A DNA stretch of 23,418 nt from a virus. The number at the start of each line of letters is the position of its first letter. Within the stretch, counting starts at the first letter, position 1. Both the position numbers and the translations under genes were made by a program. Of the stretch, positions 101 to 17,300 are shown piece by piece. The notes under the pieces were generated by a model, which worked only from the letters and a program-made list of their open reading frames with translations, searched no databases and was not told where the DNA came from. Location: positions 1 through 23,418 of IMG/VR virus record IMGVR_UViG_3300011116_000054; one strand, 5' to 3'.

Positions 101-610
101 TCAACTGGACTTGATTCCGTAAAGGGTTGCGGTTGAGTATTGCAGAAAGTTTTGAGCATTTTGGCTTATCAAAGTTATGCGAGTAATTGCTGCTGAGTTA
201 GACCATAAACCTGCGCTAATTCGGATATACTGAGTCCCACTATTGTTTGGTGAAACTCCTTCAAGCGAAACGCTTTTATTATTTGAGCCTGTGTAGTTTG
301 GAACATAGGCAGACCAAGTGCCAAAAGTGCTAGCCGTAGCGGTATCAGCCGTCACTCTCGCTGCGGGATAATCAGAATAAAAACCTGATTCTATTGTGGT
401 GCCAAGAGCATCTATATCTCTAAAGGAATAATTACTAGCATTATTATTGAATTTGATATAAATAGAATCGGTGGCTGCAGCGCGAGCGGTACGACCACTC
501 AAAACCACATAAAGGTCTGTATAAGTTTGTGGGATATTTTGGAAGTCTATATTAGCCACCCCACCGCTACCCACAGTCACAGTCGCAATTGCTACATAAG
601 TATTTGCCAT
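101..610 (-). CDS. LYGIK-family fibre/surface protein (copy 4)
   Basis: This 169-residue protein has no membrane segment and is rich in Thr, Ser, Asn and Gly, as expected of a beta-structured virion protein. It belongs to a family with three other members in this window. Its start (YVAIATVTVG, then IPQTYTDL) and end (GLWSNSAAITRIT, NFLQYSTATLYGIKSS) line up with the proteins at 614-1108, 1111-1977 and 2202-2876. I do not recognise an enzymatic motif. The position after the adaptor and fibre genes suggests a fibre tip or decoration protein that binds the host surface (inference). It starts with ATG three bases after the stop of the preceding gene and has no clear Shine-Dalgarno site, so translation is probably coupled. 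Confidence 0.75.
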   Translation of the reverse strand: MANTYVAIATVTVGSGGVANIDFQNIPQTYTDLYVVLSGRTARAAATDSIYIKFNNNASNYSFRDIDALGTTIESGFYSDYPAARVTADTATASTFGTWSAYVPNYTGSNNKSVSLEGVSPNNSGTQYIRISAGLWSNSAAITRITLISQNAQNFLQYSTATLYGIKSS

Positions 611-613
611 TTG

Positions 614-1108
614 TCACGCAGCCTTTATTCCGTAGAGGGTGAAGGTTGAGCCAACTGAATAAGTCCCAGTACCAACAAGGTCAAAATTTATTGTAGTAAT
701 TGCAGAAGTATCGCGGCGTAAACACACGGCTGCTGTTGTAGCAGCACCAGCACTACCAGAGCGGCTAACTACAGTTTTGAACGTTGTGCTATTTGCATAA
801 TTCATAAAATGTAGAACTGCTACAAATGAAAATGTTGTTCCTACTTCAGAACCACTAGTGAAAACAGATTCATCTTGACCTGTTCTTCTTGTGCTAGATG
901 CTGTTGTACCATCTCCCGTCATACGTGTATCACTAAATAAACCAGCACCGCTTGCGTTAGTGTTGAACCAAGCGGCAGTAGCCCCTGATGCACTTGCGTT
1001 TATTACCGCTACAATGTCTGTGTAAGTTCCTGGGATTGAAGAAAATGTTACTCCAGTAGATGCGCTACCTAGTGTTGTCGTTGCAATAGCCTCATAGGTT
1101 GCTGGCAT
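614..1108 (-). CDS. LYGIK-family fibre/surface protein (copy 3)
   Basis: This 164-residue protein is paralogous to its neighbours on both sides. Shared landmarks are YEAIATTTLG at the N-terminus, IPGTYTDI near residue 25, a DTSAITTINF block in the last third and the C-terminal FTLYGIKAA. The middle differs strongly from the other copies, which fits a conserved framework with a variable binding face. The ATG at 1108 is two bases past the preceding stop. The likely Shine-Dalgarno site (AGGGAG) lies inside the last codons of the upstream gene, so translation is probably coupled. A host-binding or decoration role is inference from position and family. Confidence 0.75.
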   Translation of the reverse strand: MPATYEAIATTTLGSASTGVTFSSIPGTYTDIVAVINASASGATAAWFNTNASGAGLFSDTRMTGDGTTASSTRRTGQDESVFTSGSEVGTTFSFVAVLHFMNYANSTTFKTVVSRSGSAGAATTAAVCLRRDTSAITTINFDLVGTGTYSVGSTFTLYGIKAA

Positions 1109-1110
1109 CG

Positions 1111-1977
1111 TTACGCTCCCTTTATTCCGTATAAAGCAAATGATGAGTATTGTAAGAAATTAGCCGATGCTTCCAAACTGAAAGTTATTTTAGTTATAGC
1201 GTTTGTATTCATCCAAAAACCACTATGAATACCAATGCGGTCATTAGAGGTTGAGTTGTTATTCATACCATTTAGAGAGCGAGCAGTTTTATATTTATTG
1301 GTATTTGCATAATCTAATACATCAACAACGCCAGCATTGAAAATGTTAGAGTATGCTACTGGAGTATTTCCAGCAACATTTATATTGTTTGTATCTGTAC
1401 CACCAGCCAATACCGAAGCACCTGTGCCTAATAAAAAGTGTCCATTGTAATTTCCACTTGTACTGTCGTCGTTGAAGCGCATATAAAGATTTCTTATATC
1501 TGCTGGCGAGCCAGAGGCAGCAGCGATAAATCTAACCTGTAAGTGTGTATAAGTACCAGGGATAGAAGTAAAACTTACACTTGAACTTCCACCAGCACCA
1601 ACAGTTACAGTAGAAATGGACTCATAAGAGGTAGGTGTTGCTGGCGTGACGCTGTTACTTGCTGCAGAATACGCAGAATCTCCTAGGCTATTACCCGCCT
1701 TGACCTGAAAGGTGTAAGCAGTGCCAGCAGTCAAGCCCGATACTGTGATCGGCGATGCTGTGCCAGTGCCAGTAAAACTTCCAGGACTCGACAGTGCGGT
1801 GTAGGTAATCGTACCGTTGGCAACGTTGTTACCAGTAAAGGCAACGGATGCGCTTGTACCATTACCACCGTCTGAGGCAGTACCGATGATTGGTCTGAAC
1901 GGTAGTCCAGCCAAGACATCGTTGTACTTTGGAGTCTTATTTCCAATAGTAGAGTTTTTGATACGGGTAATAGCCAT
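1111..1977 (-). CDS. FnIII plus LYGIK-family fibre protein (copy 2)
   Basis: This 288-residue protein has two visible parts. Residues about 28-112 form a fibronectin type III-like domain: beta-rich, with ITVSGLTAGTAYTFQVKAGN and a closing SNSVTP, both characteristic of FnIII repeats. Residues about 116-288 are the family domain (YESISTVTVG, IPGTYTHL, SGFWMNTNAITKIT, NFLQYSSFALYGIKGA). FnIII domains are common as spacers or carbohydrate-binding additions in phage tail and surface proteins. The first 27 residues (MAITRIKNSTIG...) look like a short attachment segment. The ATG at 1977 follows AAGGA about ten bases upstream. This looks like a domain fusion next to single-domain paralogues. Confidence 0.78.
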   Translation of the reverse strand: MAITRIKNSTIGNKTPKYNDVLAGLPFRPIIGTASDGGNGTSASVAFTGNNVANGTITYTALSSPGSFTGTGTASPITVSGLTAGTAYTFQVKAGNSLGDSAYSAASNSVTPATPTSYESISTVTVGAGGSSSVSFTSIPGTYTHLQVRFIAAASGSPADIRNLYMRFNDDSTSGNYNGHFLLGTGASVLAGGTDTNNINVAGNTPVAYSNIFNAGVVDVLDYANTNKYKTARSLNGMNNNSTSNDRIGIHSGFWMNTNAITKITFSLEASANFLQYSSFALYGIKGA

Positions 1978-1992
1978 TACAGATAAGTCCTT

Positions 1993-2202
1993 TTAGGAGA
2001 GTAGTAGTTTGGCTTCGTCTTCGGTGATGCCTAGTTTTGCTAGAACTGCTTCTTTGGCTTTGATACGCGCTTCTTCTTGTTCGCGCTCGGTTTTGGCATC
2101 AGCCTTATCTAATTCCCATTGAGCCAATTCCTGCGCGTTCATTTCGCGTTCAATTTCTTCGCCTGTTTCAGCATTGACGATTTTGATAATTGGATTTCTC
2201 AT
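1993..2202 (-). CDS. Small acidic helical protein of the fibre locus
   Basis: A 69-residue, highly charged protein. After a short strand-like start (MRNPIIKIVNAETGEEI) it is almost entirely predicted helix rich in Glu, Lys and Ala, probably coiled coil, ending in LAKLGITEDEAKLLLS. Similar C-terminal segments (LxKLGxTxDEAxxLL) occur in small proteins beside phage tail-fibre genes. The role here could be a fibre chaperone or a small structural linker, which is inference. Its ATG shares one base with the stop of the upstream gene (TAATG at 2200-2204), and GGAG sits eight bases upstream. Confidence 0.7.
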   Translation of the reverse strand: MRNPIIKIVNAETGEEIEREMNAQELAQWELDKADAKTEREQEEARIKAKEAVLAKLGITEDEAKLLLS

Positions 2203-2876
2203 TAGTTCACTCCATATAGATACGCTGTGCCGCCGTCAATTGTTCCTGATGCAATTCCGACAGTTATCGAAGTAATTGCCGCAGAATTGTTATAGACACC
2301 GCCAGTGTGTTGACTTTGTGTCCAAGTATTTGATTTCTGTGAGTTTGAATCTACATCAAAGAAAACTCCACCAGTCGTTGTATAGCGATAAAGGTTGATA
2401 ACTGCGCGACCTTTGTTCTTATTATTATCTCCTGTGCCAGTCAAATAAATAATATTTGCTCTTGTTGTGCCAAGTCGGCCAGAAGTGTAATTTACTAATC
2501 CAATTGTGCCGTTGTCATCTCGAGAGTAATAACCATTCCACCAATAATTTGTTCCAGAATCGCTGTTGAATCTTAGGAAAACAGTATCGCCTGTTCCATT
2601 GTCAATAAGGTTATCCACAATGAGCATAAGATTTTTGTATGAACCGCTAATGGAACTGATTGTCGTTGATGCACCTGAAAGTGTCGTGGTACTAAGTAAA
2701 GTCATTCCACCGCTTGAAGGTGTAGCCCACTTCAATCCTGTCGCCGTTGTGCTGTCGGCAGTAAGGACTGTGTTGTTAGCGCCTACGCCCAACCTTGTTG
2801 GAATAGTTGAGAATGTAAATAAATCACCCTTAGTTGTTACTGGGGGATTTTGTGCATTGAATGAGTTGACAGCCAT
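2202..2876 (-). CDS. LYGIK-family fibre protein with KGD/GxKW module (copy 1)
   Basis: A 224-residue virion protein with two modules. Residues 16-50 carry a KGDLF...VLTADSTTATGLKW segment, which also occurs at residues 116-152 of the 172-aa protein at 3224-3742. I know this kind of segment as a linker in phage fibre proteins. Residues about 57-224 are the divergent family domain (LLSTTTLSG, ISGSYKNL, GGVYNNSAAITSIT, TAYLYGVN). It is the most diverged of the four copies, ending YGVN rather than YGIK. The ATG at 2876 follows the preceding stop as TAACAATG with no strong Shine-Dalgarno site, so coupling is likely. A host-facing fibre role is inferred. Confidence 0.75.
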   Translation of the reverse strand: MAVNSFNAQNPPVTTKGDLFTFSTIPTRLGVGANNTVLTADSTTATGLKWATPSSGGMTLLSTTTLSGASTTISSISGSYKNLMLIVDNLIDNGTGDTVFLRFNSDSGTNYWWNGYYSRDDNGTIGLVNYTSGRLGTTRANIIYLTGTGDNNKNKGRAVINLYRYTTTGGVFFDVDSNSQKSNTWTQSQHTGGVYNNSAAITSITVGIASGTIDGGTAYLYGVN

Positions 2877-2878
2877 TG

Positions 2879-3208
2879 TTAGGAAATCTCACTTCCGTAA
2901 GCGTTGAAGGTCAAGTTTGCAGATGATGCGTAGACTGTAATGACATCGGTTGTAGCCAAGGTAATACCGAGTGTTAGCGCAGTAGAGTCATTGGCTCCTA
3001 CTGAGCAGTCGTAGGCTACGTAGTGCTGGTTAGCAAGTGCTGCTCCAGCAGGACGGATAGCCAAGCGGAATGTTGCTGAAGTTGCATCACGGTTTGCTAC
3101 GACGATGGTTGATACCACAGCAGAAGTTGCTGCAGGTACTGTGTAGAGGGTTGTTGCTGTTGTTGCCGAGGGTGCTGATTGACCCAGGACTTTGTATACT
3201 GTTGGCAT
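2879..3208 (-). CDS. Small beta-rich virion protein
   Basis: A 109-residue protein rich in Thr, Ala and Val with no charged core (MPTVYKVLGQSAPSATTATT, then TLYTVPAATSAVVSTIVVAN, RLAIRPAGAALANQHYVAYD, DVITVYASSANLTFNAYGSE). I remember close relatives of this pattern annotated as structural or hypothetical proteins beside phage tail-fibre genes. It probably folds as a beta-sandwich and sits on the virion surface, as a decoration or fibre-attachment piece (inference). The ATG at 3208 follows a strong AAGGAG seven bases upstream. The gene is separated by only 15 bases from the upstream fibre gene. Confidence 0.75.
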   Translation of the reverse strand: MPTVYKVLGQSAPSATTATTLYTVPAATSAVVSTIVVANRDATSATFRLAIRPAGAALANQHYVAYDCSVGANDSTALTLGITLATTDVITVYASSANLTFNAYGSEIS

Positions 3209-3223
3209 TATTTCTCCTTTAGG

Positions 3224-3742
3224 TTATGCGCCCATTAGCATAAAAATATCTGGAACTGATCCACCAGCAGTTGCGCTAGTAGCAGCCCATTTGACTCCCA
3301 GAGTCTGGCTAGAATCGGCAGTCAAAACGTATCCATCTGTACCTACTGCCAAGTTATCCGCAGCGGCTGATGCACTACCTACTACCAAGTCACCCTTTGC
3401 TGTAATCAAGGTTGCTGGCAGAGTAGCATTGAAGTAAGTCAAGTCATCGCTGGTAAGAACGTGCTTGACAGTTGCACCTGCTGAGTGAGTTACTCCAGAT
3501 GAACCAGCACGTGCTCGAACGATAGTGAATGTATCGCTAGAGGCAGCGGTAATAAAAACAATTTCTTCGTTAGTGGTATCAGGGTCAATGGCTACTGTGA
3601 ACTGGTCAACGTTTCCAGCAGCGAGTGTGACCCCACCAAGTAAGGCAGAGCCAGTTCCTGAAGCCACAGTCATTGTCGTTGCACTTGAACTTAGTGAAGA
3701 TGCAAGTGTCGTCTCAACGCTAATGGACGAGTATAGACGCAT
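3224..3742 (-). CDS. Fibre-like structural protein
   Basis: A 172-residue protein. Residues 1-95 are beta-rich and contain TNEEIVFITAASSDTFTIVR plus a GxxxxxHSAGATVKH segment. I associate that segment with phage surface and fibre-base proteins that describe a beta-barrel entry domain. Residues 116-152 are the KGDLVVG...VLTADSSQTLGVKW linker shared with the 224-aa protein downstream. The last residues, VPDIFMLMGA, resemble the end of the collagen-like protein ([10 protein letters not shown]). AAGGAAGG precedes the ATG at 3742. Probable role: fibre or fibre-base protein; no enzymatic motif seen. Confidence 0.72.
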   Translation of the reverse strand: MRLYSSISVETTLASSLSSSATTMTVASGTGSALLGGVTLAAGNVDQFTVAIDPDTTNEEIVFITAASSDTFTIVRARAGSSGVTHSAGATVKHVLTSDDLTYFNATLPATLITAKGDLVVGSASAAADNLAVGTDGYVLTADSSQTLGVKWAATSATAGGSVPDIFMLMGA

Positions 3743-3754
3743 TATTGGCCTTCC

Positions 3755-4669
3755 TTATTTGGTGTAGTGGATTCTGATAGGGAATTTGTCTTGCAGTTTC
3801 AACGCTTCCTCCTGTAGTCGCTGTTGGAATAATTGAAATACAAAAGTACTTGCTTTTACCCCAGAGTTATATGGACTCTTAGAATCATTGAGATCAGCCT
3901 CAGCGCTGGATAGGTTTATACGACCAGCATCAAGGAATGATAAAAGTTTGTAGCAAGCGCCAAGGATAGTTACATCAACAGTGCTGCCAGGAAGACCAGT
4001 AACATCTTCATAGTCATCGGTACTAGCATCAAGGGTATTAGGCTCTGTTGTGTACCAGACTTGAACTGTACGTCCAGGTTGAATGTTCTCGTAAATGTTG
4101 ATGGTGTTATTGGTATTGAAGGTAGCAGCGTTTGCCATAGGATCTGCTCTCCAGCGATTGACTGGGAGCCATTCTTCAGATGAACCAGTTGTCTGCCACG
4201 ATACGTACAAGATTGCTTCTAGGTCATCTGGTAGGGCGTAGGTTGTCTGGGCTGCATTGAAAGTAAAAGTAGTTGAACTTACTGCCCATAACTTCGGATA
4301 GTATGAGTTGATAGTGTCATTGATAGCCTTCTTGATTGACACTCGTGGGAAAGTTGGAGCCAATGTTACTTGAGCATAGCGAGCGTGTGGTGAGGCTGTA
4401 GTTCCTTGGAAACCGCGACCAATCGGGTTAGTTGGAGCACCCATTACGTTGAGTGTGTTATTGGTCTTATTGAAGGAGTCAACCCAGATTAGTTCATCGT
4501 CAATCTCAATCAAACCTTTAGCAAGGTTGTCAGATGAACCGACTTCAATAGATAGGCTAGTGGTCGTCAGACCAGCAGTGTTATTGACATAAGTGATGCG
4601 ATCTTGACGGAGCGAATAACCTTGTAGGTTAGTTCTCACCTCGTCTATCATCTCGGACAGTGTTGGCAT
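3755..4669 (-). CDS. Putative head-tail adaptor / connector protein
   Basis: A 304-residue protein. The N-terminus (MPTLSEMIDEVRTNLQGY) is a helix. It is followed by a beta-rich part with LIEIDDELIWVDSFN and GRGFQGTTASPHARYAQVTL, and then RVSIKKAINDTINSYYPKLW. That order (a small barrel that meets 'IEIDDEL', then a helix of the 'IKxAINDTI..YYP' type) is one I remember from connector or neck proteins of actinobacterial phages. Its later half (ALPDDLEAILYVSW, EWLPVNRWRAD) resembles adaptor proteins of the T7 gp11 kind in general build. I chose the ATG at 4669, with GGAAGGAAAC just upstream, over a start eight codons earlier that lacks this. It overlaps the glycosyltransferase gene by 41 bases. 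The function is inferred. Confidence 0.6.
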   Translation of the reverse strand: MPTLSEMIDEVRTNLQGYSLRQDRITYVNNTAGLTTTSLSIEVGSSDNLAKGLIEIDDELIWVDSFNKTNNTLNVMGAPTNPIGRGFQGTTASPHARYAQVTLAPTFPRVSIKKAINDTINSYYPKLWAVSSTTFTFNAAQTTYALPDDLEAILYVSWQTTGSSEEWLPVNRWRADPMANAATFNTNNTINIYENIQPGRTVQVWYTTEPNTLDASTDDYEDVTGLPGSTVDVTILGACYKLLSFLDAGRINLSSAEADLNDSKSPYNSGVKASTFVFQLFQQRLQEEALKLQDKFPIRIHYTK

Positions 4670-5729
4670 TGTTTCCTTCCGTATACCAGCCATCTCCCCA
4701 CAGAGTTTCTAATCTGTGGAAGTATTTTTCGTATTGCTTTGCAATGACATCTACAGAATAAAGCGATATTGCTCTATCTCTAATTGCCTTGCGGTCTAGA
4801 TTCTTGACGTTCTGTGTTGCCAAGATAAACTCTTCTACATTGCGGCATCTAAAGCCTGTAACGCCTTCTATTACAGTTTCGGTAAATGCACCCCAGTCTG
4901 TAGTAATAACTGGAGTTCCACAGGCTTGTGACTCAATATTCACATTGCCAAATGGTTCTATGTACAGCGTTGGAACGAATGTTGCTATTGCTCCACCCAT
5001 CAACTCTGCACGCTTCTCAGGTCCTACTGGACCGATATACTCACCATAGTTTGGTATGTGATTACCAGGTCCTGCCATAATCAACTTAGCGCCGATGGTC
5101 TTGCAGATATGTGCTGCAATGTCTACACCTTTGCGAGCAATCATTCTGCCTACATACAGGTAGTAATCTCCATCGCCTTTGCCTAGCGGAAACATCTCAG
5201 GATCTAAGTAACCTGGAATGACCGCATCAAAGAATGAGCCATCTACTGTGGCTGCATCTTTATGCTGTGCATAAACACTGTGCATCCAAGCGTAAGATTC
5301 AAATACTCGGTAGTTAGAAAATACTCCAGAGTATCCAACACCAAACTCTACAACCATCATTCCTGGTAGAGCCATTGCTATCGGTTGATGTGAACCACCA
5401 CCGATGACACATACAAAGTCTTTCTGTTCTGCACGCTTGCGTATCTCAGCAGCAGCCTTCTTATTGAACTTCTGCCAGTGAGGTAACTTGTAATCAAACG
5501 GTGCTTCTACGTATGGTCTATTACCTACAACGATGCGTCGTTGTGTTTCGGTGATGCAAGGGATAAGTTCATCTACATCTGCTTCATTTTCTTCGCCAGC
5601 GTAGAGATAGACTGTGTGGCCTAAGCCCTTCATCATATTGCAGAACCTGCGTACCTTTTCAGTGTACGCACATCCTGCGTAATCTTTAGTTGTTTGGGTA
5701 TGTGGTAGTGATACAACGTGAAATCTCAT
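4629..5729 (-). CDS. Glycosyltransferase, GT4-type GT-B fold
   Basis: A 366-residue enzyme expected to transfer a sugar from an activated nucleotide donor to an acceptor, in the host cytoplasm. Visible GT4 landmarks in order: YLYVGRMIARKG (residues 190-201; R195 and K200 in the usual phosphate-contacting place), IMAGPG (217-222), and PTLYIEPFGNVNIESQACGT (253-272). The last holds the E-x7-E pair E258/E266, then PVITTDWGAFTE and GVTGF. The N-terminal half (MRFHVVSLPH..., HWQKFNK..., GGGSHQP) is the acceptor-side Rossmann domain. The length is normal for the family. It follows the collagen-like gene by ten bases and overlaps the adaptor gene, so it is made with virion proteins. The collagen-like fibre is an obvious candidate substrate (inference). 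No Shine-Dalgarno site precedes the ATG, which instead sits in a small hairpin. Confidence 0.88.
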   Translation of the reverse strand: MRFHVVSLPHTQTTKDYAGCAYTEKVRRFCNMMKGLGHTVYLYAGEENEADVDELIPCITETQRRIVVGNRPYVEAPFDYKLPHWQKFNKKAAAEIRKRAEQKDFVCVIGGGSHQPIAMALPGMMVVEFGVGYSGVFSNYRVFESYAWMHSVYAQHKDAATVDGSFFDAVIPGYLDPEMFPLGKGDGDYYLYVGRMIARKGVDIAAHICKTIGAKLIMAGPGNHIPNYGEYIGPVGPEKRAELMGGAIATFVPTLYIEPFGNVNIESQACGTPVITTDWGAFTETVIEGVTGFRCRNVEEFILATQNVKNLDRKAIRDRAISLYSVDVIAKQYEKYFHRLETLWGDGWYTEGNNANTVRDDRRGEN

Positions 5730-5738
5730 AAGGAGATT
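5722..5738 (-). promoter_or_regulatory. Hairpin holding the glycosyltransferase start codon
   Basis: On the minus strand AATCTC, the loop CTTAT and GAGATT form a perfect 6-bp stem with a 5-base loop. The A and U of the start codon lie in the loop and its G closes the stem. The sequence just upstream of the start is CTCCTT, which is opposite in sense to a ribosome site. The gene may therefore be translated only by ribosomes ending the collagen-like gene ten bases upstream. The structure is seen; the regulatory effect is inference, and a 6-bp AT-rich stem is weak. Confidence 0.3.
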
Positions 5739-5739
5739 A

Positions 5740-6647
<908 letters not shown>

Positions 6648-6651
<4 letters not shown>

Positions 6652-6986
6652 GTTGTTACCGCTCCTGTCACCACGAACTTGCCTTCAAGAATACGAGTAA
6701 TAACTCCACCAGAATCTAAAACTAAATCATAGGCATAACGGCCTGCTGATATAGCACCAGTGATAGTTGCATCTAATTCAATGACTACACGACCTTGTGA
6801 TTGCAAAGTGATGCGTCCATTAGATGTTGAAGCAACAACAGTAGTTGTACTAGCGCCAACGAATGGGCGTACAGTCATTGTTGCAGTGTAGTTAGTCAAG
6901 TCCCAAGGAGTATCGTTATTCTTTAGTTGGAACTGAAAATTGAATGTGGTCGCCTGGTCGCAGACCAGATTGTATTTAGCACTCAA
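6648..6986 (-). CDS. Beta-sandwich baseplate/neck-type protein
   Basis: A 112-residue protein starting [20 protein letters not shown], followed by [15 protein letters not shown] and a closing [10 protein letters not shown]. This 'xQGxTFxxxFxxKxxxxxPxDLTxYTAxMxVR' build is common in small phage proteins next to tail-fibre genes. It resembles the N-terminal domain of BppU-type baseplate proteins, which anchor fibres to the particle. I infer an anchor for the collagen-like fibre that follows it. The start is TTG at 6986, overlapping the upstream stop as TTGA, with AGAGGA eight bases before. No ATG or GTG fits the conserved N-terminus better. It overlaps the collagen-like gene by four bases. Confidence 0.72.
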
Positions 6987-7270
6987 GATGAGATTCCTCT
7001 GAGAGCCTGCGCTGCAGCCAGTCCAGAAGTAGAAGCGATGTAGTTACATACACCAGTAAAATCAAGCCACTTACTTTTATCAGTAATGCCAGCAATTTGA
7101 TTTAGCACCCCCACTGTATCTGTAACTGTAATGGTCACGGAGCGTTGGGTAGCCCACTGCTTTGCTGCTAGAGCCATATCAACCATATTGCCCATTGTGC
7201 GGTAAGTGCCGCCATTGGCTAGACGATTGAGTTCGTCATTGAGCGTTGTGCCGTAAACTCCTAGTGCCAC
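6983..7270 (-). CDS. Small phage protein of unknown function (95 aa)
   Basis: A 95-residue protein: ALGVYGTTLNDELNRLANGG, then NMVDMALAAKQWATQRSV, LNQIAGITDKSKWLDFTGVC and [17 protein letters not shown]. It looks like short helices alternating with 'LD(F/L)xGVCNxxA' turns. I remember similar 'VYGTxLNDELNRLANGGTY' proteins from actinobacterial phage structural regions, but not an experimentally assigned role. GTG at 7270 with AGGAG six bases upstream is the start. It overlaps the next gene by four bases (TTGA), which ties it to the beta-sandwich and collagen-like proteins as one translational unit. Confidence 0.7.
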   Translation of the reverse strand: MALGVYGTTLNDELNRLANGGTYRTMGNMVDMALAAKQWATQRSVTITVTDTVGVLNQIAGITDKSKWLDFTGVCNYIASTSGLAAAQALRGISS

Positions 7271-7279
7271 TTGTATCTC

Positions 7280-7435
7280 CTACTTCTTTTTTGCTACTGC
7301 TACGTTATCTACCAAGTTTGGCCAGGGTCTTCCAGCCTTCTTAGCGCGGGCTTTTGCCGCTGCCTTTTGTGATGGTGTCAGTTTCTTTGATACCTTCTTA
7401 GGATTCTTTGTATCCCAAAATGCTTTCTTTTTCAT
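7280..7435 (-). CDS. Very small basic protein (51 aa)
   Basis: Starts MKKKAFWDTKNPKKVSKKLT, continues SQKAAAKARAKKAGRPWPNL and ends in VAKKK. About a third of the residues are Lys or Arg. A GRPWPNLVDN segment near the end breaks the otherwise helical, basic run. I have a memory of similar 'AKARAKxAGRPYPNLVDN' tails in phage micro-proteins but no function for them. I use the ATG at 7435; an in-frame TTG at 7462 lies inside the upstream gene. Upstream is AAGTGGTAGTT, a weak ribosome site shared with the stop of the preceding gene. Confidence 0.68.
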   Translation of the reverse strand: MKKKAFWDTKNPKKVSKKLTPSQKAAAKARAKKAGRPWPNLVDNVAVAKKK

Positions 7436-7437
7436 AA

Positions 7438-7719
7438 CTACCACTTTTCGCGATTGGCCCAATAGGCAGCACTCATCTTGCCTTTAGCAATGTTTTTGCG
7501 ATGGCGAGCCTTGAAGGACTTTTGTCTAGCGGTAGGTTGTCTATCGCCTGTTACGCCTTGTTGTCCGAATCGGATAGTCTTGACTTGACTTCCTTCTTTG
7601 GCAACGACGACGTGACTCTTAGTTGGGTGAGAAGGCGTACGCTTGGGTTTGTTGAAGCCCGTAACGCCAGCACGTGCCAAACGCGGATCACGCTTTCTTT
7701 TGCTTTCCATACTCTCCAT
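7438..7719 (-). CDS. Small basic conserved phage protein (93 aa)
   Basis: A 93-residue basic protein. Visible blocks are GFNKPKRTPSHPTKSHVVVA, KTIRFGQQGVTGDRQPTARQ and KARHRKNIAKGKMSAAYWAN, ending REKW. This block order is one I remember from a conserved family of cyanophage and other phage proteins (possibly DUF6321). That name should be checked, and the family has no known role that I can state. Two in-frame ATGs at 7719 and 7710 are both possible: AGGAAAGT precedes the first and GGAGAGT the second. It starts inside the end of the preceding gene, like the rest of this cluster. Confidence 0.75.
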   Translation of the reverse strand: MESMESKRKRDPRLARAGVTGFNKPKRTPSHPTKSHVVVAKEGSQVKTIRFGQQGVTGDRQPTARQKSFKARHRKNIAKGKMSAAYWANREKW

Positions 7720-7831
7720 ACTTTCCTAGAACTGCACGAATCGTGCCATTCTTGTTGAGTCTGACAACCATCCCGTCTCTGATAATGACAGAGTTGAACT
7801 TCTCACGTCGGCGGTATTGACCCGACGACAT
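7688..7831 (-). CDS. Very small basic protein (47 aa)
   Basis: Reads MSSGQYRRREKFNSVIIRDG, then MVVRLNKNGTIRAVLGKYGE, ending YGKQKKA. The centre (VIIRDGMVVRLNKNGTIRAV) looks like a short beta-hairpin, with basic ends. The ATG at 7831 shares a base with the upstream stop (TAATG), and the gene overlaps the start of the next one by 32 bases. Coding is supported by this overlap pattern and the structured composition. I do not recognise a family. Confidence 0.62.
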   Translation of the reverse strand: MSSGQYRRREKFNSVIIRDGMVVRLNKNGTIRAVLGKYGEYGKQKKA

Positions 7832-7998
7832 TACTTCTTCTTAGCCTTCTTCTTAGCCTTTGGCTTGGACTTGCCAGCCTCAGATAAAGCGATAGCGATT
7901 GCTTGCTTGCGACTCTTGACCACTGGGCCACCCTTACCTGAATGCAAAGTTCCGCGCTTGAACTCGCCCATAACCTTTGCTTCTTTGGTTTTCTTCAT
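7831..7998 (-). CDS. DUF6496-like small basic protein (55 aa)
   Basis: The core KVMGEFKRGTLHSGKGGPVV, followed by KSRKQAIAIALSEAGKSK, is characteristic of the DUF6496 family: a short domain common in phages and some bacteria, with unknown function. The rest is a lysine tail (KAKKKAKKK). The ATG at 7998 overlaps the upstream stop as ATGA, and its own stop overlaps the next start as TAATG. The conserved domain makes this the best supported of the tiny genes here and argues that its neighbours are real too. Confidence 0.85.
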   Translation of the reverse strand: MKKTKEAKVMGEFKRGTLHSGKGGPVVKSRKQAIAIALSEAGKSKPKAKKKAKKK

Positions 7999-8153
7999 TT
8001 GTCTAGGTACCGTCCTGGATTCTTGTTCTTGGACTTCAACGGCTTCTGCTTCATAATGGCAGCATCAAGTGCATTCATCTTCTTGGTAGGCATCTTGGCT
8101 GGCTTTACACCTGGCTTCTTTGTAGCAGGCTTCTTCATCGCAGGCTTCTTCAT
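7995..8153 (-). CDS. Lys/Pro-rich tiny protein (52 aa)
   Basis: Starts MKKPAMKKPATKKPGVKPAK, then a short neutral helix (MNALDAAIMKQ) and ends KSKNKNPGRYLDK. The KKPA/KKPG repeats look like a histone H1-type tail and would bind nucleic acid or another acidic partner. That is inference from composition only. The ATG at 8153 shares a base with the upstream stop (TAATG) and its stop overlaps the next start (ATGA). Confidence 0.65.
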   Translation of the reverse strand: MKKPAMKKPATKKPGVKPAKMPTKKMNALDAAIMKQKPLKSKNKNPGRYLDK

Positions 8154-8296
8154 TACTTGCCCTGCTTTGGTGCTGGCTTGCCCATTGCGCCTGACATCAA
8201 TTTGTCATAGGTCATAAATGGCTTATCGTTTGTATCGCTAGGCCAAGGTAGGAAATCTTCTTCCATCTCGTACTGTGCTGGATCGTTGGCTGGCAT
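8153..8296 (-). CDS. Tiny protein of unknown function (47 aa)
   Basis: Reads MPANDPAQYEMEEDFLPWPS, then DTNDKPFMTYDKLMSGAMGK and ends PAPKQGK. It is acidic at the N-terminus and basic at the end, unlike its basic neighbours. A strong AAGGAG lies six bases before the ATG at 8296 and is formed by the last codons of the zinc-ribbon gene, whose stop abuts this start. No family is recognised. Confidence 0.65.
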   Translation of the reverse strand: MPANDPAQYEMEEDFLPWPSDTNDKPFMTYDKLMSGAMGKPAPKQGK

Positions 8297-8638
8297 TTAG
8301 TTCTCCTTGAGTGTCATTGTGTTTCCATCGAAGGCTTTACCAGTCTCGTTGGAAAACTTCATTGCGGCATCTATATCTTTTTGCTTGGTGGATATAGGTT
8401 CAACTCCCTGTCTAACTGCGTCGTAGTAGGAGTTGACTTCTTTGTCCCATTTGATTTCTTTGGTCTTATCCCAATGTTGCCGAGTAGGGAAGCACCCTGC
8501 AAAGTTAGGCATATTGATTGCTCTGATCATTTCGTTATCGCAGGTAGAGCAAATTTCTTTTCTTTCAAACTCTGCGTAAGACTTTGATATCTCTTCTTGC
8601 ACTTCGCAGGTCTGGCAAATGTAATCGTATCGTGGCAT
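8297..8638 (-). CDS. FmdB-like zinc-ribbon protein
   Basis: A 113-residue protein starting MPRYDYICQTCEVQEEISKS, with a second pair in EICSTCDNEMIRAI. The two CxxC pairs (C8/C11 and C31/C34, counting from this start) and the PxYDYxCxxC beginning are the hallmark of the FmdB zinc-ribbon family, common in bacteria and phages. The C-terminal two thirds (WDKTKEIKWDKEVNSYYDAV...) is helical and charged. Its role in the virion or infection is unknown. I use ATG at 8638, overlapping the upstream stop as TGATG; an in-frame TTG one codon earlier is less likely. Confidence 0.82.
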   Translation of the reverse strand: MPRYDYICQTCEVQEEISKSYAEFERKEICSTCDNEMIRAINMPNFAGCFPTRQHWDKTKEIKWDKEVNSYYDAVRQGVEPISTKQKDIDAAMKFSNETGKAFDGNTMTLKEN

Positions 8639-12043: not shown

Positions 12044-13618
12044 TTACCCCTGGAATCCAAAGTCACGAAGTACGCCAAGAACTGAATTGGCAACTTCTTC
12101 ACGAGCATTTTCTGTGTACTGCCAGCGAGAGTCTTTACGTAGTGCTTTCTTGAAATCATAGATATTCATTTCTTTATCCATACCTATAGCACCACGTAAA
12201 GTACCATCATTGAGATCAATCTCATCTGGGTTGAGTTCAAGAATTTGAGCCATAACATTTTTGTATGGAGCATAAATTTGCTCTAGGTCATAGCCTTGTT
12301 GTAGTAATCCTTTGACATAATCTGGAGTACCTTGGGCTGCAATCATACGAGCATCTTGTGCTAGACGGTTGATATCTAGTTCTCCCGTAGCAAGTTTTTG
12401 CAATACTACATCATCGAGAGTTTGGCCTGGAAGCACTGATAATTTAGGCAGGATATCTTTGATAGATAGACCATTTGCCTTGGCTACTGCCTGAAGCGCT
12501 TGGTAGTTCTGTAGCGCTTGACCTGTATATCCAGATGGTTGAATTCCCATTCCAGTACCGACAATGCTGGATACTTTGCCAATATATGGGGCAATGAACG
12601 AATCAATGGCTACAGTATCGTTTTCTAAAAAGCCATCATAGACGCGTGAGACAATCTGATTGATTGCATTTTCATCTAGATTTGCACCCATCTGACGAGC
12701 ACGAGTCTGAACGCTACGCTTGATGGTAGCCGTATCCATTGCATACTCAGTCTTGGAAGCGTCCTGACCAGCAGAAGTAAGTTCATTGAACTTAGCACGA
12801 GCAATAATACGAGTACGGATAGGCGCTGAGTTCTGTTGCCACCACGTAGTTAGTTTTGCCTGTGATAGGAACTTCTCATCATCCCAACCTTCATTGACAG
12901 CCTTGACAAGAAGTTCGCCTAGTTTAGGAACTGTCTTGAAGATATAGTCAGGTAGGTCATACCAGAACTCTGTCTGACGCAAGATTGATTCAAGGTCACG
13001 CTGTGATTTTGGTGGAATGTTTGGAGTAGCACCCATAGATGCTTCTTCTCCAGCACGTACCATAGCAGGATCAAATGTGCCAGGTATTGCATTACCAGAT
13101 GGAGTAAGAGTAGTTCCAGTGTCTTTGTCTGGAGTTACTTTACCTTTACCTTTATCTTTTGCTGGCGATGGGGTCTTTGCTTCTTTTGCTGCTGTTTCTT
13201 TAGCAGTCTTAGTTGCTTGGAGAGTGACAGAACCAGTAGGACCAGCAGTTGGTTTTGCTGCTTGAGGCTTAGTAGCAGCAGGTAATTTTATTACTTCTGG
13301 TTTCTGAGAAATAAGTTTATTTAGTTCAGCAATCTCTTTATTGAGACTTTCTGCAGCATCTCTAATTTGTTGTAATTTTGTAGGTGAAAGTTTCTTTCCC
13401 TTGTTTTCACCTACAGCGGCTATACCTGTAGAAAGTTGTTGAATGTATAAGTCATAGATGCTTTTTTTAGAGCCTATAATCCTTCTGGCTTCTTTTTGTC
13501 GCTTTGCAAGATCTTCATTGCGTTTACGAATTGCATCAAGAATTTTTTTATTTTCTGCAGCGGTCTGTGCTTGAGTTGCTTGGTTTTGTTTATTTTGAAT
13601 ATCTTGTTCGACGCTCAT
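12044..13618 (-). CDS. Putative internal virion protein (524 aa)
   Basis: A 524-residue protein. The N-terminus (residues 1-105) is coiled coil with KRQKEARRIIG. A Lys/Pro/Thr/Ala linker follows (about 110-185), then a helical region. At about 246-268 is FLSQAKLTTWWQQNSAPIRT, a WW motif near an R-rich helix. At about 441-468 comes YDLEQIYAPYKNVMAQILEL and then NPDEIDL. Near the end KKALRKDSRWQYTENA is followed by LGVLRDFGFQG. These two motifs are ones I remember from virion proteins of actinobacterial phages, often in one larger polypeptide. Start ATG at 13618 overlaps the previous stop (TAATG). Role in the particle (ejection or core) is inference; no catalytic residues seen. Confidence 0.6.
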   Translation of the reverse strand: MSVEQDIQNKQNQATQAQTAAENKKILDAIRKRNEDLAKRQKEARRIIGSKKSIYDLYIQQLSTGIAAVGENKGKKLSPTKLQQIRDAAESLNKEIAELNKLISQKPEVIKLPAATKPQAAKPTAGPTGSVTLQATKTAKETAAKEAKTPSPAKDKGKGKVTPDKDTGTTLTPSGNAIPGTFDPAMVRAGEEASMGATPNIPPKSQRDLESILRQTEFWYDLPDYIFKTVPKLGELLVKAVNEGWDDEKFLSQAKLTTWWQQNSAPIRTRIIARAKFNELTSAGQDASKTEYAMDTATIKRSVQTRARQMGANLDENAINQIVSRVYDGFLENDTVAIDSFIAPYIGKVSSIVGTGMGIQPSGYTGQALQNYQALQAVAKANGLSIKDILPKLSVLPGQTLDDVVLQKLATGELDINRLAQDARMIAAQGTPDYVKGLLQQGYDLEQIYAPYKNVMAQILELNPDEIDLNDGTLRGAIGMDKEMNIYDFKKALRKDSRWQYTENAREEVANSVLGVLRDFGFQG

Positions 13619-14301
13619 TAGTCAGCACCCAACGCTTTCATAAATGTCTCATAGAAACCAAGCACTTTATTAGCCTTTGCCTCATCTGTCCCTGATACCT
13701 GATCTATTAGATACTGCCCTGCATCAAAGCCACCAGTCGTAGTGGTGGTTGTTCTTTTTCCAGAACGAACAGAAGTGCTAACAGTAGGCGCAGCCTTCTG
13801 AGCCTTCTTGACTAGTTTGGTATAACGAGCAACTTCAGCAGCATTAGCCTTACGACCTAGTTGGTCTTGAATAACAGCATCGATAAGAGCCTTGGCCTTA
13901 TCATCAGTAATAACTGAAATAGATTCTGATACATAAGTGCCATCACCACCAGCACCGCCAGTACCGTCAGCGCCTTCAAGCGCTAATCCAGCAATAAAGT
14001 CAAAGCGATTAGGTACATCAATAACAGTTGCTAGTTCAGCGCGTTTCTTTTCTGCTTGGATAAGAGCATCATAGAAACGATTGTTGAATTCTCCACTTAC
14101 CTTGCCACGATAGATGCCAGCATCTTTGAGTTGTTGTGCAATCTTGGCACGGATAGTAGGAGATGCTTGGCTTAGACCCTTAGCAAATGCTGTGAATGTA
14201 TCTTCGCCTGCGACGGCTGCATTCTGCTGTGCGCCAGCAGCCTGAGACGAGGCCATAGCCTGTGCTCTTGCTTGGTCAGCAGTCCTTGCTGTCTCTGCCA
14301 A
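13618..14301 (-). CDS. Putative virion-associated protein (227 aa)
   Basis: A 227-residue, mostly helical protein. It has an Ala/Gln-rich helix at the start (ARTADQARAQAMASSQAAGA) and a Gly-rich hinge near residue 115 (GADGTGGAGGDGTYVSES). At about 135-170 is LIDAVIQDQLGRKANAAEVA followed by RYTKLVKKAQK, then a Thr-rich segment and a helical C-terminus (AKANKVLGFYETFMKALGAD). The 'LGRxAxxxExxxYxxxL' helix pair is a motif I know from phage internal or lysin-linked proteins. The start is TTG at 14301, one base after the preceding stop, with GGAG six bases upstream. Function unknown; membership of the ejection module is inferred from position and composition. Confidence 0.62.
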   Translation of the reverse strand: MAETARTADQARAQAMASSQAAGAQQNAAVAGEDTFTAFAKGLSQASPTIRAKIAQQLKDAGIYRGKVSGEFNNRFYDALIQAEKKRAELATVIDVPNRFDFIAGLALEGADGTGGAGGDGTYVSESISVITDDKAKALIDAVIQDQLGRKANAAEVARYTKLVKKAQKAAPTVSTSVRSGKRTTTTTTGGFDAGQYLIDQVSGTDEAKANKVLGFYETFMKALGAD

Positions 14302-14302
14302 T

Positions 14303-17300
14303 TTAGTCTCCTAACAGCGAGGCAAACAACACGTTGTATGCACTCTTTGTATTTTCGTTGAACTCTGATAATTCACGCATCTTGACGATGGTGTCATCCT
14401 TGAGCATCTGTGCTAAGAATGTTCCACCGCTGATTACATCTAACGCCTTACGCTCATTCTTGTAAGAATCGTATAGGTCTAGCATTTCACGCAATTTACC
14501 TTCAGTAGCAGGCATAACGTTTGGCTTAGCCTCTAGCATAGAACGTAGATCGTTGATAGCGTTGATGCGCTCAATAGCCTTTTGGCTACCTTGCGATAGT
14601 TCTTCTGCAACTAATGGACGACCTGCAAAGAACAAGGTCTTCCAATCAGTAAACTCTTTGCGTAGTTGGCTACGTTCAAAGTCAGTTCCTACCTGAGTCA
14701 AGGACTCTTCGTAGGCATTCTTCTTTGCGTAGTAGGTCTGCAAATCTGCTGCTGTTTGTACCTCACGTAGGTAGTCAGCAACTGACTTGTTACGCTTTAG
14801 ACCCATATCAGTCATAGTCTTGTACGCATCCCACGAGAATCCAGCCTTGTGTGGAATCAAGAATGCTGCACCTTGAGGGAATTGCTTGAACAAATCTTTG
14901 TTCTGCTCTACGAAAGCACCTGATTCTTCAGCATAGCGGAAGTATGCAACCGTGCTTCGTTCTGATTCTGGTACTGTGAATGGAATTTGATCTGGATATA
15001 GTTCAACCCACTTAGCCATCGCAGCGTCATAGTCACCTGGATACTGGTCAAGTAGTTTGTTCCAGAGTTGCTTGAAGTTAGCACGTCCATTATCTCGTAC
15101 CCACTCAGCCATATCGCTCTTGAGTTGTACCTGTGGTGATGCTGGAGCAAAAAAACCGAATACGAAGCGAGTTCCAAGAATTGCAACCGTAGTGTTCTTC
15201 ACGCGTAGGCGATATTCTTCAAGTTCTTGCGCTGAAGGTGGAATTAGGTTTCCAGCCTCATCATACTTCTTAGGTAATCCGTGTCCACCAGCCTCAAGAT
15301 AGGTAACAGCCTTACGCCAAGCGCTGGCATACTGACTATCGCGCTCATCTTGGTTCATTGCCGCATACAAACGGTTGATATGTGCTGGCAAGAACGCTGA
15401 AACCATTGACTGATCTACAGCATACTTACCTAAAGCCAACTGTGTGATGGTATCTGCAGCACCTGGATTGAAGATACCTACAAGATTTGAAACAACCTTG
15501 ACAGATACACCAGATAATGGACCAGCAAATGTAGGAGCCAAAGAATCTGGGTTGAGAGATGGGGTAATCATCTTCAACTGTGCGCCAAATTGAATTGGCA
15601 GCGGTGTCTTGAACTCTGCTGGTACGCCTAAAGCCTGGAGTGCGCCTTGAACTGCACGGTAAACAGGCTCAATACCTGGATAAATGAAGTATGGTTCGCC
15701 CTGATCATCCTTCTGAATCCATCCAGAGTGAGTAATACCTTCGTAAGTAAGGCCTGCCTTGACGATAGACTCAGGGTTGTAGCGAACTGCCCTGTATACA
15801 CGTCGATAAAAGTCTTCTGTGGCACGGTAGAAACGTGCAAAGTTACGCGATGAGAAGGCAATCTGTGAACGAACTAGTGGATTATCCACATATTGCAACA
15901 CTTGTGATGTAGCACGTTCTTCAATAGCCTCAGCCAACTTGCGTTTAGCAAGGTTTGTTGCTGCTTCCACCTTGGCTGGCTTAGTTGGATCTACGTTCTT
16001 GAGGAAAGAATTGATGTAAGCGTCATAGAAACCAGTCTTCTTCATCTGCTTACGAATCTTTACCATCTCATTGATGACCAAAGGTTCACGTGATAGACGT
16101 GCGTTAGCCAAACCTAGCCAGGTCCAGCCTTTTGTCATAATAGATGCGGTGTAGGAACCAGCATCTGTTACTGGAACAAGGGTAGGTCCAATGACATACT
16201 CTGGGATATCGTCTAGATTCTCTGGTAGATCATCTAGTGATAGACGACCAGTGATGACATATTGACCTTTTTCGTCATCATAAACACGAATCTTATCAAG
16301 AAGTTCTTTATTGATGACAGCATTTCCAACATCATCTACTTTACGCTTAGCAATAATCTCTTTAGCACGATTTACAACAATCTTTGCGTGCTGCATTTCA
16401 TCAACGCCTTGCGCTGCAAGACGTGCATTCTTAGTAAACTCTGGATGCTTGATAATCCAGTCATAGACTAACTTGACAGCATCTGGACTATCAGCGTTAG
16501 CCAAGGCAATAGCGCCTAGTTCATCATTAGCATAGTAAGAAATACGCATCAACCAAGCAATCATTGAGGCTTCATCTTGCTGACCTAAAGCAATCTTCTT
16601 GAAGCCACGCTCCCCGCGTGCGCGAGAGTACATATTACTAGGGACGTTGATTTCCAAGGCAGCCATACGAACGCCTGTAGCCTTCTGGAAATTGACTGTG
16701 CGAGTGATGTAATCGTTACCAGTAACGAAGTTGAATCCACCCTCAGAAACAATAGACAATGTATTGTCAATGTTTCCGTAGGTAATCTGTTCTGCTAGGA
16801 ACTGCAGTTCTTCATCATCAAGCAGATTTGCACCCAGTTTGGTACGCAGTCTATTGACTCGACCTTCAGAAAGCGAACGGGCTAAAATATTACGAGTCTG
16901 TTGTACTAAACCACCTTGAGTGCTTTGACGTAACTCGTCAATACGCCGCTCAATATCAATTACTTTGCCTGGATTGAGAACCTTATCGGTTGTTTTCAAC
17001 TCATCGCGTAGCGCTTTGATTTCAGCCTTAGCATTACGAATTGCATCGTCAAGACCAGCAATCTCTGCTTCGTATTTACCAGCCTCATTTTTGTTCAGAA
17101 TACGCATTACAGATCCAAGAGGATTTTCTGCGGCTTTCTCACCTTTAGTAAGCCCTTTACGAATTCCAAGTGCTGTGTTGATACGTGTGGATAAGTAGCG
17201 AGATTTAGCCAATCCCCAAGGAGTTACCTGACCAATAGCCAAGGCAACCATCAAATCTTCTGTAGCGTTACGGATAGCATAGCGTGGACCAGCGAGAGTC

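Follow-up and report, generated by a model that had tools for sequence, protein, structure and literature searches.

The four neighboring, similar fiber-like genes at one end of a viral contig raised the question of whether they act as interchangeable copies or as parts of a single structure. The window, meaning the whole stretch of DNA analyzed, is a complete IMG/VR record of 23,418 bases. A sequence-only reading had proposed four paralogous fiber genes in a row, arisen by repeated duplication that could widen or switch the host surfaces bound. All four ORFs were found where that reading had placed them, on the minus strand at positions 101 to 610, 614 to 1108, 1111 to 1977, and 2202 to 2876, and their products are referred to as A, B, C, and D, respectively. 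Minus-strand genes ran in the order terminase, portal, 1613-aa protein, major capsid protein, collagen-like protein, and glycosyltransferase, followed by an SU10-type adaptor, fiber-like proteins, D, a 69-aa protein, C, B, and A. Because the record ends about 100 bases past A, the genes downstream of A were out of view. The capsid protein shared 92 to 100% identity with its counterparts in several other IMG/VR contigs and 49% identity with those of OX376640 (phage LanE43-AprE7; E7) and OX376641 (LanE43-AprF5; F5), which were the first cultured "Ca. Planktophila" phages (PMC10202952). Based on this capsid similarity, the window probably derives from a freshwater actinobacterial phage. The OX376640 and OX376641 records (loci L252 to L254; L-numbers are labels of loci in a 491-sequence sample) are unannotated and labeled "Caudovirales sp. 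ct2KA10," and OX376640 contained a C-B-A triplet at about 25320 to 26916, after which a relative of the 69-aa protein was encoded.

Other minus-strand genes near the array were examined. The nearest clear tail-assembly gene was that for the SU10-type head-tail adaptor (positions 3755 to 4693; PF24175, E = 1.5e-9). A tail fiber-like protein (positions 3224 to 3742; phrog_38058, "tail fiber protein," E = 3e-18) and a 109-aa conserved tail-region protein (positions 2879 to 3208; matches to phrog_1276 and tail fiber phrogs) were also encoded, the latter preceding the triplet in most relatives. The small genes described earlier as lying among the copies amounted to a single 69-aa ORF between D and C (positions 1993 to 2202), a conserved protein that had no Pfam match and whose phmmer relatives adjoined the triplet, directly after A in many relatives; it may be an assembly helper. 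The collagen-like protein (positions 5740 to 6651; PF01391, E = 5e-42) was encoded by a single gene that was conserved upstream in relatives and present in nearly all capsid relatives examined, and it is a possible candidate for the stalk partner of the fiber head proposed below.

A, B, and C shared a domain of about 170 aa (blastp, A-C E = 5e-23, B-C E = 5e-14, and B-A E = 2e-8), of which D carried a remote fourth copy. An A+B+C profile matched D at E = 3e-4, A, B, and C were matched at E = 1e-21 to 3e-26 by a profile built from the relatives of D, and hhalign of the class profiles against D gave probabilities of 95 to 96% (E = 1e-8 to 2e-9). The proposed homology of the four proteins was thus confirmed, as were the shared opening, central, and LYGIK- or YGVN-type closing motifs from which it had been argued. 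Conserved positions of this head domain (A numbering) were F23, I26, N55, Y106, K112, and LYGI, strongly so in A, B, and C and remotely in D. Subunits A (169 aa) and B (164 aa) consisted of the head domain only, without an N-terminal extension, and B was in frame with A, with three bases separating the B stop codon from the A start codon. In subunit C (288 aa), the head domain spanned about residue 106/115 to 288 and was preceded by the FnIII-like extension that had been noticed earlier (24.8 bits, barely below the Pfam cut-off of 25; E = 2.5e-5), which is the proposed anchor. D (224 aa) carried, also as noticed earlier, an N-terminal KGD...GxKW module (phrog_32934, E = 4e-11), followed by a divergent head domain that leaned toward class B (hhalign, E = 1.6e-9). 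The same module was found near the C terminus of the product of positions 3224 to 3742, and weak B-leaning matches occurred upstream of C in L259, L260, and L267. Lying outside the C-B-A unit and bearing an N-terminal module of its own, D is probably a related protein that forms a separate homotrimer.

Searches of family and structure databases placed the head domain in no named family. Neither A nor B had a Pfam match above the cut-off, and the class profiles corresponded to no Pfam entry. PHROGs matches were found for 0 of 47 A-class members, those among 19 B-class members were of single members only (three families, all of unknown function), C was matched in PHROGs and Pfam through its FnIII-like part only, and D matched phrog_14820 (unknown function; E = 3.5e-6). 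A PDB sequence search of the classes returned no credible relative; C-class matches to designed TIM barrels were judged to be due to chance. AF2 predicted A to be a 12-strand beta domain (pLDDT, 89.4; pTM, 0.85), for which no PDB fold match was obtained at E ≤ 0.001, the best matches being weak and lectin-like. In BFVD, 122 matches were found at E ≤ 0.001, several of them in collagen, FnIII, or fiber-repeat proteins. The same predicted fold was present in phage proteins A0A6J7WWM7 and A0A6J5NIY9 and in a collagen-repeat protein of Solumvirus, A0A3G5AGA0 (TM about 0.7 to 0.94 for the BFVD set), but these records are mostly unnamed and, unlike C-B-A, have no described triplet organization.

The arrangement of the copies was then compared across the 491 sequences, which came from scans of viral contigs and genome contigs, together with one phage record and the window. 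Loci had been retrieved with A, B, C, or capsid queries, such that the sample was not blind, although a query with one class does not require the presence of the others. Class models, each built from 15 to 19 proteins, assigned the window proteins with margins of 124 to 134 bits (C, 233 bits versus 99 and 99; B, 193 versus 70 and 65; A, 245 versus 114 and 89). Among 184 complete unique arrays situated away from locus ends, 174 were made up exactly of C-B-A units (168 single, 5 double, and 1 triple), and 6 of the remaining 10 still held a C-B-A (or C-B-a) unit. Of 117 three-gene arrays that had not gone into the class models, 115 had the order C-B-A (median margin, 99 bits). The copy number in 23 whole records was 0 (ten records), 3 (nine), 6 (one), or 9 (one), with one further record cut inside the array and one carrying a single copy. 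The earlier claim of four paralogues therefore held with respect to homology, but the copies are not equivalent: the three fixed classes A, B, and C together make up one unit, and D stands outside it as an additional copy. Divergent arrays in L010 and L256 still had three copies, the first gene having the longest leader, and L012 had three copies in one 520-aa ORF, this being one divergent example whose class identity is weak. L256 and L257 had been considered as fusions, but L256 contained three separate genes. Three complete triplets occurred in tandem in one phage (L167, positions 3815 to 8626), and a triplet in a contig of a Polynucleobacter metagenome-assembled genome (L251) reflects either a wider host range or a binning error in this betaproteobacterial bin.

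The explanation that we consider likely is that C, B, and A are the chains of one obligate 1:1:1 heterotrimeric fiber head, in which C serves as the anchor, the trimer is completed by B and A, and the loops bind the host. The adjacent, often overlapping genes would yield three different chains, of which C would tether the head to the virion by its N-terminal extension, and B and A, having no anchor of their own, would join C. The N-terminal strand (beta-1) and the C-terminal LYGIK strand of each chain would pack round a common axis, with variable loops contacting the host cell surface; in some relatives, a glycine-rich tip on A, or on both B and A, would contact it as well. This explanation draws on the homology, the classes, their order and all-or-none inheritance, the anchor/tip asymmetry, and the couplings reported here, and it predicts the physical trimer and its receptor binding. 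It is also favored by the three-copy ORF of L012, the class-fixed residues, the close spacing of the genes, the joined-chain model, and the occurrence of the fold in collagen and fiber-repeat proteins elsewhere among viruses. The proposal that a surface domain had been duplicated, keeping its frame while its loops varied, within a tail or fiber gene region was to this extent supported; the possibility of mixed trimers had been raised in that reading as well.

Placement on the tail rather than the phage head was deduced from gene order. A heterotrimeric decoration knob at quasi-threefold capsid positions, which would be compatible with the trimer itself, is unlikely, though it is the likeliest of the alternatives. 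Such a knob has a precedent in the heterotrimeric capsid decoration of phage T1 (gp48/gp49; PMC11945409), and the collagen-like gene lies within the same block of genes, but in most relatives the triplet genes come after those for the head-tail adaptor and tail fiber-like proteins, and glycine-rich C-terminal domains are borne by A and B.

The three classes differed in what was attached to the head domain. C had a median of 16 aa before the domain, often with an ILGI-like motif, and 0 of 265 C proteins had 2 or fewer; in L259, L267, L260, and L214, about 95 to 116 aa preceded it. B started at the domain in 94% of cases and A in 91%. C-terminal extensions were found on 0 of 271 C proteins, and those longer than 60 aa occurred only on A (20 proteins) and B (15 proteins), class A being the most frequent bearer of a glycine-rich tip; 4 of 6 extensions tested matched Pfam Gly_rich_2. 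Lone or fourth copies (L008, L057, L214, L230, and D) had N-terminal parts of their own of 47 to 108 aa. Of 542 gene gaps, 429 (79%) were within 5 nt, and 221 were one-base overlaps, a spacing that fits coupled translation of the triplet genes.

Contacts between the chains were sought with a mean-field coupling analysis, for which 271 triplets were paired (effective number, 264); this alignment is shallow, and shared ancestry is not wholly removable from it. Fifty inter-protein couplings among A, B, and C exceeded z = 6 (maximum, 15.7), compared with 6 to 16 under random re-pairing (maxima, 7.7 to 10.1) and zero under near-neighbor re-pairing (maxima, 3.6 to 5.2). In 30 of the 50, both ends fell within a region made up of the first and last strands and the YTDL strand. 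As this region had been named post hoc, columns were chosen from one interface and the other two were scored, and enrichment was retained (P = 3e-5 to 5e-9 at z > 6 and P = 0.013 to 1e-7 at z > 5). Gene overlap does not explain the couplings, since for many of the strongest pairs (A167-B7 and the A-C pairs, for example) the coding positions are far apart in the DNA. The A-B, A-C, and B-C pairs all used the same strand patch, as would be expected of a closed trimer more than of a chain; pseudo-threefold consistency was also tested, and no consistent cycle of couplings was favored. Residues fixed by class at equal positions in A, B, and C (position 117, D/R/L; position 32, D/D/H; position 115, S/L or I/R) fit non-identical partners.

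A joined C-B-A chain was also modeled. Single domains aligned together with a three-domain chain landed on one third of it, so input was limited to read-through chains and gene pairs, and the chain modeled was artificially joined by reading through the stop codons in L181. AF2 gave moderate scores (pLDDT, 82.8; pTM, 0.69), and Foldseek of this three-domain model returned weak tandem-sandwich matches only, such as laminin LG. By our estimate, three well-folded domains placed randomly would give a pTM of about 0.4, and some interdomain packing is therefore predicted with fair confidence.

Most phage fibers are homotrimers. That A, B, and C form separate homotrimers at three places on the virion, each of them essential, is accordingly a reading with a precedent, and each class is indeed conserved by itself. 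We nonetheless regard it as improbable, given that B and A have no N-terminal anchor and that neither inter-class couplings on one common patch nor the three-domain fusion in L012 and the duplication of mostly whole triplets would be expected of independent proteins.

In a tree of 272 triplets, including that of the window, A, B, and C were each exactly monophyletic (272 of 272), with support values of.99,.83, and.94, respectively; an earlier tree of 133 triplets had included isolate E7. These trees indicate that the classes are ancient, and the copy numbers in whole records indicate gain or loss as whole triplets; recent duplication as the origin of A, B, and C was ruled out. A cassette of recent duplicates offering alternative tips is very improbable, for although the variable loops and the strong differences between triplets of phages with near-identical capsid proteins would suit it, it is largely refuted by classes so fixed in order and number and by the single set in almost all genomes, when alternative tips would not require all three. 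The earlier suggestion that repeated duplication served to widen or switch host range was not supported on these grounds.

Host range seems to change by the swapping of whole triplets. L014 and L016 encoded capsid proteins 99% and 95% identical to that of the window and adaptors 91 to 95% identical, but their triplets were only 38 to 54% identical, and triplets also turned up in otherwise different genomes, one example being the 107-kb L180 record. From these patterns, the triplet seems to be exchanged as a whole, as a host-binding module would be. No triplet was found in the 26-kb record of L015 (98% capsid identity), where unrelated genes (positions 12939 to 17065) occupied the expected place. 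In L093 (positions 5435 to 7000), B was 84% identical to that of the window, A 48%, and C 43%, a sign of recombination inside the triplet; parts of triplets can thus be mixed, which counts against the obligate heterotrimer.

The triplet is kept together in hundreds of freshwater viruses, and abundant phages of this habitat are predicted from sequence to carry heterotrimeric tips of a large family not yet catalogued, in contrast to the usual homotrimer picture, with a clear split into one anchor chain and two tip-bearing chains. With the balance of probability slightly in favor, a large lineage of tailed phages may have replaced a homotrimeric tip, via ancient triplication, with an obligate, asymmetric tip whose chains (C as the anchor and B and A as its partners) are not interchangeable, presenting three different faces and exchanged as one host-range unit. 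If this is true, annotation and host-range work must handle the three genes together, as a single binding site. How a homotrimer turns into a heterotrimer could be studied within one family, because single copies with their own anchor persist, and the heterotrimer idea is testable, because cultured phages E7 and F5 carry the triplet.

A search of the accessible literature on heterotrimeric phage fibers found no description of the LYG(I/V) head-domain family. Three paralogous beta-sandwich chains (A, B, and C) also form one asymmetric trimeric binding head in complement C1q. This likeness is an analogy only: the collagen-like gene of the window is separate from the head genes, no Pfam C1q match was obtained, and C1q was not among the best 50 PDB fold matches. 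Closer in genetic organization is the tripartite tail of virophage DSLV2 (QIG59353-55), for which the accessible portion of the report (J Virol 2025, PMC12724248) describes three consecutive genes of similar length, conserved as a threesome within a lineage, whose coexpressed products copurify as a host cell-binding heterotrimer of 1:1:1 composition. C-B-A resembles it as an adjacent three-gene set kept as a threesome, with the complex here predicted from sequence. The DSLV2 proteins, however, belong to a virophage and have a needle fold like the T4 gp37 tip, whereas C-B-A belongs to a tailed phage and A is predicted to be a compact domain that does not resemble that needle or any PDB structure at E ≤ 0.001; the anchor/tip asymmetry seen in the C-B-A genes is also not described in that portion of the report. 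In mycobacteriophage Mysterious, adjacent genes encode gp35, gp36, and gp37, which form a beta-sandwich baseplate heterotrimer by cryo-EM (preprint 2026, PMC13252515). These are siphophage baseplate accessory proteins, and their Acadian counterparts showed no detectable sequence similarity to C-B-A. Acadian, which we take to be a B5-cluster relative of Mysterious carrying the same genes, encodes gp35 to gp37 in overlapping genes (L258, positions 14958 to 16809; 202 to 209 aa), with gp35 and gp36 being paralogues (E = 7e-10) and gp37 having no detectable similarity to gp35; the set is a parallel case of a three-gene heterotrimer. Homology of the head-domain family to these Acadian proteins was rejected (hhalign probability, 0.1%; hmmsearch, E > 0.3). 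By analogy, C-B-A may function as the three-gene heterotrimers of DSLV2 and Mysterious do, while on the features tested it belongs to neither.
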